From: Bacteroidales bacterium
GTDB lineage: Bacteria > Bacteroidota > Bacteroidia > Bacteroidales > UBA7960
NCBI GenBank assembly: GCA_012521995.1
Contig: JAAYLH010000015.1
Span: 1-64,000 of the forward strand
DNA: 64,000 nt
Direction of reading: 5' to 3'
In this document: piece after piece, positions 13,664-41,876 of the stretch
Position numbering within the stretch: the first letter of the stretch is position 1
Layout of the letters: each line of letters opens with the position of its first letter
Made by a program: the position numbers and the translations under genes
The notes under the pieces: model-generated
What the model saw: only the letters and a program-made list of their open reading frames with translations
The model's database searches: none
Told to the model about the DNA's origin: nothing

Positions 13664-14749
13664 ATGGCATTAAACTGTGGAATGGTGGGGATGGCCGGAA
13701 GTGGCAAGACCACCCTTTTCAATTCATTATCAAAAGGCCGCGAAGCCGATACCCAGATAGCAGGAAAGGCAAACCTCGGGCAAATTGAAGTCCCCGACCC
13801 AAGGCTAGATGCCATTGCTGCCCTTGTGAAACCCGCAAAAGTGGTACGCACCACCGTAGAAATCATCGACATCCCCGGGCTTACCAAAGGGGGGGCCACC
13901 CAGAAGGGCGCGGGGCAATTCCTGGCTGAGATCAGGCAGACCGACGCCATCATCCATGTGTTGCGCTGTTTCGATGATCCCTTGGTGCCCCATATAGAAG
14001 GCTCCGTAAACCCCTTGCGCGACAAGGAAACCATTGACCTGGAGCTGATTGCCAAGGACCTCGAAACCCTGGAGAAAAAAATACAGCGCATAGATAAACT
14101 GGCCAGGGTGGGCGAAAAAGATGCTAAGAAAAACCTGGATGTGCTCACCAAGGTGCAGGAACACTTCGAAAACGGTGAACCTGCCAGGACTTTCCCATTC
14201 AGCGATGATGAAATGGCATTGATTGACGACTGCTTTTTCCTAACCATCAAGCCCGTGATTTATGTGTGCAATGTGGATGAAGGCTCCGCTGTAAATGGAA
14301 ACAAGTATACGGAAATGGTCAAGCCCTCCATTGGAGCCGAAGGCGCTGAAATGCTTATTATCGCAGCAAAAGCTGAAGCTGAGATTGCACAGCTCGACAG
14401 TGAAGACGACCGCATGGCTTTCCTTGAGGATATGGGGCTTAAGGAACCGGGAGTAAACAAACTGATCCGCGCCGCCTATCATACCCTCAACCTCCACACC
14501 TTCTTTACTGAAGGCCCCAAAGAAGTTAGGGCATGGACCATCCACGCAGGTACCCTGGCTCCAAAAGCCGCAGGGGTCATTCATTCCGACCTGGAACGCG
14601 GATTCATCCGGGCTGAGGTCAAACGATGGGAAGACTTTGTGGAACTGGGATCAGAACACGCTTGCAAACAAGCAGGGAAATTTCACATCGAAGGCAAACA
14701 CTACCTTGTGAAGGACGGCGATATCTTTCACGTCAGGTTTAACGTTTAA
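13664..14749 (+). CDS. YchF-type P-loop NTPase with altered P-loop
   Basis: 361 residues from the ATG at 13664; the open frame reaches back to 13061 but that part overlaps rtcB on the other strand and has no homology-like content. Length and order fit YchF/Obg-like ATPases: G domain with P-loop, a helical insert (about 130-190), and a C-terminal TGS/DUF933-like domain (DUF933 end HAGTLAPKAAGVIHSDLERG). The P-loop reads GMAGSGKTT where ordinary YchF has NVGKS, and the switch region reads GLTKGGATQKGAG where the family norm is GLVKGASKGEGLG. It is therefore probably a paralogue rather than the housekeeping YchF. Role: ribosome- or stress-associated ATPase by family only. Confidence 0.75.
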   Translation: MALNCGMVGMAGSGKTTLFNSLSKGREADTQIAGKANLGQIEVPDPRLDAIAALVKPAKVVRTTVEIIDIPGLTKGGATQKGAGQFLAEIRQTDAIIHVLRCFDDPLVPHIEGSVNPLRDKETIDLELIAKDLETLEKKIQRIDKLARVGEKDAKKNLDVLTKVQEHFENGEPARTFPFSDDEMALIDDCFFLTIKPVIYVCNVDEGSAVNGNKYTEMVKPSIGAEGAEMLIIAAKAEAEIAQLDSEDDRMAFLEDMGLKEPGVNKLIRAAYHTLNLHTFFTEGPKEVRAWTIHAGTLAPKAAGVIHSDLERGFIRAEVKRWEDFVELGSEHACKQAGKFHIEGKHYLVKDGDIFHVRFNV

Positions 14750-14774: not shown

Positions 14775-14810
14775 AAAAGGCTGCCTCCTTAAATCGGGGC
14801 AGCCTTTTTT
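14775..14810 (+). terminator. Terminator of the YchF-type gene
   Basis: 11-bp perfect stem AAAAGGCTGCC (14775-14785) with GGCAGCCTTTT (14798-14808), 12-nt loop, T-run at the end. It is 25 bp beyond the stop codon. Confidence 0.9.
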
Positions 14811-14897
14811 GCCTTACTCAGGGTAACTGTTAAAACCAGGACCTGACACACTATTCAGAATATGCTCAGGCTGTTTCAGATTCAATGATCAAACGAA

Positions 14898-14999
14898 GTT
14901 AAAACGTGTTTTAAACGTAGTTAAGACGTGCACGCACGTTTAAACTACGTCTTAACTACGTGTTAACTACGTCTGAACTACGTCTGAACTATGACTCAC
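14898..14999. repeat. 11-bp palindromic array, element A (convergent junction)
   Basis: Left arm of three units (GTTAAAACGTG, TTTTAAACGTA, GTTAAGACGTG; 14898-14930), a CACG centre, then right arm of five (CACGTTTAAAC, TACGTCTTAAC, TACGTGTTAAC and TACGTCTGAAC twice; 14935-14989) and a decayed TATGACTCAC. The arms are reverse complements of each other, so the element can fold into one large hairpin. It lies between the convergent YchF-type and SRPBCC genes and is bracketed by each gene's own terminator. Flanks CTGTTTCAGATTC (14871-14883) and ATGACTCA (14991-14998) recur around element B. The rest of the 470-bp gap holds nothing else I recognise. Confidence 0.9.
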
Positions 15000-15130: not shown

Positions 15131-15171
15131 AAAAAAAACAGGTCGTCTTAATCATTTAAGACGGCCTGTTT
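15131..15171 (-). terminator. Terminator of the SRPBCC/glgB unit
   Basis: On the minus strand a 16-bp stem (AAACAGGCCGTCTTAA with TTAAGACGACCTGTTT, one G-T pair), a 4-nt loop, and a run of nine T. Confidence 0.88.
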
Positions 15172-15219
15172 GTCTTATGACTCCTGCCAACAGATCAAAG
15201 GGCAGGAGATTGCAAAGCC

Positions 15220-15603
15220 TCAGGCTTCGAAAAAATCCTGTAAGGCATCAAGGTAAAAGCCTTTCCAGCCTTCCACCATATTCTCGTATGCATCCTCAGG
15301 GATGCCAAGGTGTTCTACCATCATTTGCGTTCCCCCTTTCTCAGGAAAGAGCTTGATGGTTACCACCGAAGGTTCCGCTTCTCCTTCAAAATACCATTCC
15401 TGTTTCAGCATTTTTGCGGTTTCAAAGGCTATGTTTCGACCTGTGATTTCGCCGTTGAGCATGCTGAATTCTGAATCGGGTTCTTCACTCATGGTGGCCG
15501 GTTCTCCACTCCAGAGTTCAATTGTAAAGGGGTTTGTCAGCGCCCGGTATACTTCTTCGGGGGTCGCTTTGATCTTTCGGTACAATTTCAGGCTTTTCGA
15601 CAT
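15220..15603 (-). CDS. SRPBCC (AHSA1-like) domain protein
   Basis: 127 residues, the size of a single START-like AHSA1 domain: an N-terminal strand with ATPEEVYRALTNP, then FTIELWSGEP, and a long C-terminal helix around GWKGFYLDALQDFFEA. Such domains bind hydrophobic ligands or, in Aha1, stimulate Hsp90; the role here is unknown. It starts 3 bp after the glgB stop, so the two are almost certainly co-transcribed, and a strong terminator follows. Confidence 0.8.
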   Translation of the reverse strand: MSKSLKLYRKIKATPEEVYRALTNPFTIELWSGEPATMSEEPDSEFSMLNGEITGRNIAFETAKMLKQEWYFEGEAEPSVVTIKLFPEKGGTQMMVEHLGIPEDAYENMVEGWKGFYLDALQDFFEA

Positions 15604-30843: not shown

Positions 30844-30974
30844 ACCCGCCTGCCCATCCCAGCCCGCTGGCCTTAGCATTTTTCCCTAAGGATGCATTTT
30901 CTTTTTCCCGAAAGTGGACCCACCCGGGTCATGCAACCATTCCTTGGCCGTTATCAGTAGGGACATTGTTTTTA

Positions 30975-31042
30975 GTTAAACCGTAGTTAAACCGTACTTT
31001 AACCAATTATAATTGGTTAAAGTACGGTTTAACTACGGTTAA
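30975..31042. repeat. 11-bp palindromic element C with perfect 48-bp palindrome
   Basis: Two GTTAAACCGTA units (30975-30996) run into a palindrome whose halves, 30986-31009 and 31010-31033, are exact reverse complements over 24 bp, followed by a further partial TACGGTTAA. The units are the same length and design as elements A and B but with CCGTA in place of ACGTA. It lies between the convergent Nudix and coaD genes; the rest of that 329-bp gap has no gene I can support. Confidence 0.92.
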
Positions 31043-41650: not shown

Positions 41651-41762
41651 TATTGGTTCACTGAAATAATCGAACTTTTCGGCTTTCCTCCAAACCTTCA
41701 AGGCAGTATTTAACATTCCCAGGCAGGTAAACAGGCAGCCTTTGAACTGTTTCAAATCCTAA

Positions 41763-41876
41763 GATAAAACGTAGATAAAACGTATTTTAAACGTAGTTCA
41801 AACGTGTGAAAACGGTTAAACTACGTCTTAACTACGTGTTAACTACGTGTTAACTACGTTTGAACTACGACTCTGA
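41763..41876. repeat. 11-bp palindromic array, element B (convergent junction)
   Basis: Left arm: GATAAAACGTA twice, TTTTAAACGTA, GTTCAAACGTG (41763-41806). After a short centre, the right arm: GTTAAAC, TACGTCTTAAC, TACGTGTTAAC twice, TACGTTTGAAC (41822-41865) and a decayed TACGACTCTGA. It lies between the convergent ilvE and SLC45 genes, each with its own terminator. The flanks CTGTTTCAAATCC (41747-41759) and ATGACTCA (41878-41885) match those of element A. The remaining sequence up to 42157 (about 270 bp) has no gene or repeat I can support. Confidence 0.9.

Follow-up and report, generated by a model that had tools for sequence, protein, structure and literature searches.

What is the inverted array of 11-bp units that lies between two converging genes in this stretch of Bacteroidales DNA: a structure that folds, a repeat that moves, or a row of sites for a protein? 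The window, by which we mean the whole 64,000-nucleotide stretch that was analysed, corresponds to contig C11 of a Bacteroidales assembly of 3.26 Mb in 140 contigs (G000 below). The best bounds of the array are 14886–14990, replacing the 14898–14999 proposed earlier by a reader that had the letters alone (the sequence-only reading). Two arms of 11-bp units face each other across a 6-bp centre, and all spacing is exactly 11 bp (Table 1). In the right, or strong, arm the units are, in order, ACGTTTAAACT, ACGTCTTAACT, ACGTGTTAACT, ACGTCTGAACT and ACGTCTGAACT; the left, or weak, arm reads AGTTAAGACGT, GTTTTAAACGT, AGTTAAAACGT and TGATCAAACGA on the forward strand or, moving outwards on the reverse strand, ACGTCTTAACT, ACGTTTAAAAC, ACGTTTTAACT and TCGTTTGATCA. 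The centre and its flanking ACGTs together form a 14-bp tract of alternating purines and pyrimidines. The 11-bp period and mirrored arms described by the sequence-only reading were borne out by TRF, which detected period 11 on either side of the centre, by reading both arms, and by genome-wide pattern counts against controls.

Table 1. Coordinates of the array, its neighbours and the other repeats of the window.
Feature	Position	Strand	Remarks
YchF GTPase gene, left neighbour	13664..14749	+	transcription towards window array
Probable intrinsic terminator of YchF gene	14782..14812	+	AAGGCTGCC-12 nt-GGCAGCCTTTTTT, T run towards array
Left (weak) arm	14886..14929	-	four mirrored 11-bp units
Centre GCACGC	14930..14935	no strand	between the two arms
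Right (strong) arm	14936..14990	+	five 11-bp units ACGT-NTN-AACT
Probable intrinsic terminator of converging AHSA1-like gene	15131..15176	-	T run towards array
AHSA1/SRPBCC protein gene, right neighbour	15220..15603	-	transcription towards window array
Second array, family B, unit ACGG-TTA-AACT	30973..31042	no strand	near-perfect palindrome
Third array, family A	41762..41869	no strand	
Degenerate inverted repeat, family-C-like centre CTCGGTTTAAACCGAA	54764..54837	no strand	

In all, the window holds two arrays of family A, one of family B and one degenerate C-like repeat, which is probably a decayed relative of the arrays. All three intact arrays are flanked by convergent pairs, the second by a NUDIX-like gene (+) and a coaD-like gene (-) and the third by an aminotransferase class IV gene (+) and an MFS gene (-). 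The terminator assigned to the YchF gene was read from the sequence, its loop exceeding the length covered by the terminator scan. At its start (positions 1–76) the contig consists of (GGTTAA)12, followed at 207–257 by a degenerate tract of the 7-base unit AACCTTA; similar tracts are intergenic in related genomes.

The arrays of the window belong to a much larger set. Pattern searches, the counts of which are lower bounds, found at least 55 scattered non-coding arrays in G000; a two-unit pattern had 149 matches, as opposed to none for the reversed control, and a palindromic core occurred at 46 places (control, 0). The array types have a common skeleton, [A/C]CG[T/G]-N-T-N-A-A-C-T, and are designated A (ACGT), B (ACGG) and C (CCGT). 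A gene-orientation script retained 53 arrays (28 A, 8 B and 17 C), which is a lower bound because L059, L189, L196, L198 and L207 are among further arrays that fail the script's unit rule. We compared units 2–4 of each arm in the 28 family A copies (84 strong-arm and 84 weak-arm units) and found that ACGT at positions 1–4, T6, A8 and T11 were near-invariant in both arms. Position 7 could be T, G, A or C, while A9 and C10 were retained in the strong arms and not in the weak arms. TTAA, which the sequence-only reading had treated as a constant second dyad, is one variant of T-N-A: some units contain CTTAA or GTTAA, others CTGAA. The units are also directional, the flanks of ACGT differing (T before, N-T-N-A after), so the idea that each unit contains two dyads, with a dimer sitting on each, is not supported. 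The proposal of one site per turn along one face is well supported, in that every family A copy has the 11-bp phase and ACGT-N-T-N-A in both arms. Copies in other species, and in another, unrelated family of the order, likewise keep both phase and motif.

Each of the 53 arrays is intergenic with respect to the gene calls, which were made with a home-made codon model. Among the 51 with both neighbours known, 20 are convergent, 27 co-directional and 4 divergent, compared with 3, 47 and 27, respectively, of 77 control intergenic regions of at least 150 bp from the same loci. Convergent placement is thus in excess (20/51 vs 3/77, P=4e-7) and divergent placement is depleted (4/51 vs 27/77, P=3e-4). 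Terminator-like hairpins are frequent on either side of arrays, with the T run pointing towards the array. In G167, a genome from another family, the convergent bias was not significant (9/40 vs 2/13).

Two genomes of the same genus, KA13 (G002) and UBA4814 (G003), have array sites in common with G000. There are five such sites, corresponding to six G000 loci, because one unit, which contains a gene of the DUF6266 family (discussed below), has two paralogous copies, L038 and L046. At the shared sites array identity was 0.64–0.81 and flank identity 0.47–0.60, with a shuffled baseline of 0.43–0.49; most flanks are thus no more alike than shuffled sequence. At one site the length difference between G002 and G003 is exactly one 11-bp unit, and at one a C-type array in G000 is matched by an ACGT-type array in G003. 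Replacement at a shared site may have occurred, since any two arrays of one type look alike. The site of the window array itself is occupied in G002 by an IS-like transposase and in G003 by an 86-bp gap with no array. Two different loci of G003 (L159, 3926–4175, and L160, 189–438) share 250 bp at 94% identity, with a terminator hairpin at the start; this is a recent copy of an array plus its flank, and some arrays can therefore move.

Such movement would be expected if the arrays were REP- or MITE-like mobile repeats, selfish sequences spread by a transposase and made of sites without host function. The many copies and their subfamilies, the array-free gap in G003, the long duplicates (L146 and L155 share 165 bp at 91%, in addition to the G003 pair) and the 3′-end placement, which is typical of REPs (PMC3733652), are all consistent with this explanation. 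We nevertheless consider it rather unlikely, because copy flanks are unalignable while the arrays stay similar, and because arrays persist at shared sites across gene identities of ~75–80%. Of the features of a MITE we found a weak inverted motif common to the flanks and the 165–250 bp shared by some copies, but recognised no constant ends or target duplications. Nor do the tyrosine transposase genes (PF01797) support membership in a RAYT/REP system, which we rejected: they occur in all four genus members, including G001, which is array-free, and the eight loci that were fetched had no adjoining arrays.

A different partner for the arrays emerged from comparing the proteins encoded beside them, namely DUF6266 (Pfam PF19781). 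In G000, DUF6266 genes are found directly behind A arrays (L038 and L046), a B array (L059) and a C array (L197), and two more have array types of their own, D (L321) and E (L315). DUF6266 genes also lie directly behind arrays in G002, G003, G031, G061, G136 and G167, and a DUF6266-like ORF lies beside an array in Butyricimonas. Across Bacteroidales, a strong 11-bp self-match was present in the 350 bp upstream of 36 of 67 DUF6266 starts (a count in which a few genes were entered twice from overlapping loci) but downstream in only 2 of 57 cases (P=2e-10). The strict unit motif preceded 28 of 58 unique DUF6266 genes, whereas downstream it was found at 4 of 50 and shuffling gave 4.9; of 20 spacings between neighbouring matches, 18 were exactly 11 bp; some gut-type DUF6266 genes have one or two units only. 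Moreover, DUF6266 paralog clades bear matching array types across species. Within a genome, the scattered arrays have counterparts of matching type that precede a DUF6266 gene; in G167 the unit TACGGTTGATC makes up over 35 arrays and recurs in the array upstream of its DUF6266. In all likelihood, the scattered arrays and the array upstream of DUF6266 are one and the same element.

The distribution of the gene among genomes points in the same direction. Arrays were present in 4 of the 35 genomes of the GTDB family that were tested (G000, G002, G003 and G031), and DUF6266 in all four of these and in none of the 31 array-free genomes (P=2e-5), although the counts are not fully independent, as G000, G002 and G003 are of one genus. 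G001, of that same genus, has neither arrays nor DUF6266. G337, which was outside the array test, carries a single gut-type DUF6266; the small contig on which it sits belongs to an assembly with 9% contamination. Of 295 genomes of the order, 42 had DUF6266, 6 had a three-unit array and 4 had both (P=0.004); with the pattern used, most DUF6266-bearing genomes of the order show no dispersed arrays. Elsewhere, two divergent DUF6266 genes in G039 have a single 11-bp array between them, common to both (L347, 1252–1461), and in RUG11936 a 47-residue ORF resembling the DUF6266 N terminus (MAKVELPKGILAIHGRLGDYVYRSRK...) adjoins an 11-bp array (L132, 6688–6831).

What might DUF6266 do at these arrays? 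The protein has 210 residues and no obvious signal peptide, and purifying selection acts on it (dN/dS 0.16 in two pairs and 0.49 in one close pair). Its predicted structure begins with a beta hairpin and helices modelled poorly and with low confidence (mean pLDDT 57.5) and ends in a better-modelled Ig/FN3-like sandwich. We recognised no known DNA-binding fold in the models; a PDB sequence search returned no significant match, and a fold search returned generic Ig/FN3-like folds only, for the C-terminal part. A genus-type query found no DUF6266 in phages, plasmids or viral contigs, and two gut-type copies occur in short IMG/VR contigs. The literature searched made no mention of DUF6266 and its function, or of the 11-bp arrays.

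We propose, with about an even chance of being right, that DUF6266, or a factor strictly linked to it, binds the arrays, and that this binding serves autoregulation and forms a block between transcription units. Each arm would offer four to six directional 11-bp sites, one per helical turn, facing those of the other arm across the short centre, and the protein would bind the units head-to-tail until a one-sided filament filled the array. At a DUF6266 gene's own promoter such binding would be autoregulatory, a role suggested by the position of the array upstream of the gene. The scattered A, B and C arrays, most of which follow closely on the end of a transcription unit, would instead hold a fixed nucleoprotein block, a roadblock or insulator between neighbouring and often converging units. 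DUF6266 is the best candidate for the binder, given that array types divide along the lines of its paralogs, and that it binds the arrays itself is a reading, drawn from comparative genomics, to which we give slightly less than even weight; a separate regulator of DUF6266 genes would yield an identical genomic pattern. The block or insulator role of the dispersed arrays is more doubtful, being suggested by their placement. In a bolder version, which we regard as possible though on the unlikely side, DUF6266 proteins would form a new sequence-specific DNA-binding family that polymerises head-to-tail on paralog-specific arrays, with the scattered arrays as chromosome-wide blocks.

The binder could alternatively be a classical OmpR/PhoB-type or LytTR-type regulator, both of which bind direct repeats arranged head-to-tail, with the DUF6266 genes as its targets and the scattered copies as further targets or decoys. 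The position of the arrays at genus-type DUF6266 genes, where they end just before a TAnnTTTG-like promoter box, is what such a regulator would predict, and 11-bp head-to-tail binding is known for OmpR/PhoB proteins, PhoP among them. We think this alternative rather unlikely, however, because the array types split with the DUF6266 paralogs and the regulator would need matching paralogs of its own, and because the scattered copies are mostly behind genes, 39 of 50 dispersed arrays being without a promoter box within 80 bp.

Whether the units act as protein sites or as the two sides of a stem was judged by comparing copies. If pairing were selected in family A, the two arms of a copy should agree at positions 5 and 7, which are free to vary; they agreed in 34% of cases, compared with 40% after arms were shuffled between copies. 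With no arm co-variation beyond chance, pairing in family A decays while the motif persists, on which ground we rejected a hairpin or cruciform as the conserved feature of this family; this leaves the hairpin extrusion suggested by the sequence-only reading unsupported there, the weak arms having lost complementarity and retained the motif. We also looked for copies with the hairpin intact and the 11-bp period gone, and found none; the reverse was seen, with period and motif staying as the hairpin decays. The family A array is very probably a protein array. The arrays of families B and C remain nearly perfect palindromes, so that dyad symmetry may play a part in both, and in family C the arms agree above chance at several positions. 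A structural role, whether as a cruciform in DNA or as a hairpin in RNA where transcripts end, is nonetheless highly unlikely, for although the array strands fold better than their shuffled versions (z -3.4 to -5.7, with -3.4 for the window array) and, of the 23 family A copies whose centre is 6 bp long, 18 have an alternating purine-pyrimidine centre (in ten different sequences), no Rfam family matched at gathering score and every copy retains the 11-bp phase. The alternating centre is not general, because the centres of G002 and G003 are mostly A/T rich.

The arrays read as DUF6266-linked binding sites can be set beside three known systems, the first of which is plasmid partition. The parC site of plasmid R1, part of the ParR/ParM system, contains 11-bp repeats, and these tandem sites precede the gene of the system that binds them, much as our arrays precede DUF6266 genes. 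Unlike parC, the arrays here are chromosomal and present in many copies, no ParM or ParR is linked to them, and DUF6266 was not found in the plasmid collection. In Paenibacillus sp. Soil522, three 11-bp repeats (L114, 91–117) precede an actin-like (ParM-like) gene by 17 bp, with a small ORF after it; these repeats may be a parC centromere, a single case from which we did not generalise to the arrays as a whole. Other unit matches in viruses and outside Bacteroidales were treated as chance tandem repeats (viral count 6, vs 9 and 1 in controls). In AM-2014_bin-3998, arrays of unit TACGTATTATG (L108, L109 and L127) lie inside elements with outer inverted repeats (TCCTGCCTAC...), and a long protein without family assignment adjoins two of them.

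The second system is the OmpR/PhoB box. As described for PhoP (PMC4832192), its units are likewise directional, 11 bp long and arranged head-to-tail, with a 7-bp motif and a 4-bp spacer. Those boxes are paired at promoters, whereas the arrays here are long, inverted and mostly behind genes, and no response regulator is linked to them.

The third is the REP/BIME repeat with its RAYT (REPtrons): a 20–40 bp stem-loop with a GTAG or CGTC tag at one end, associated with a Y1 tyrosine transposase gene that is flanked by the repeats (PMC3733652). Both are short, non-coding, palindrome-like intergenic repeats in convergent or co-directional placement, and both comprise several repeat families, each with a dedicated gene (PMC3733652); in G000 the arrays are dispersed and intergenic in just this manner. 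They differ in that the arrays consist of ~100 bp of 11-bp head-to-tail sites in place of a single tagged stem-loop, that the arms of family A do not co-vary, and that the linked gene is DUF6266 and not a tyrosine transposase. An unexplained repeat is now tied to an unexplained protein family. If our proposal is right, the two would represent a new bacterial way of marking the spaces between genes, with several parallel protein–site pairs per genome, resembling REP–RAYT pairs but differing in both the protein and the design of the site.
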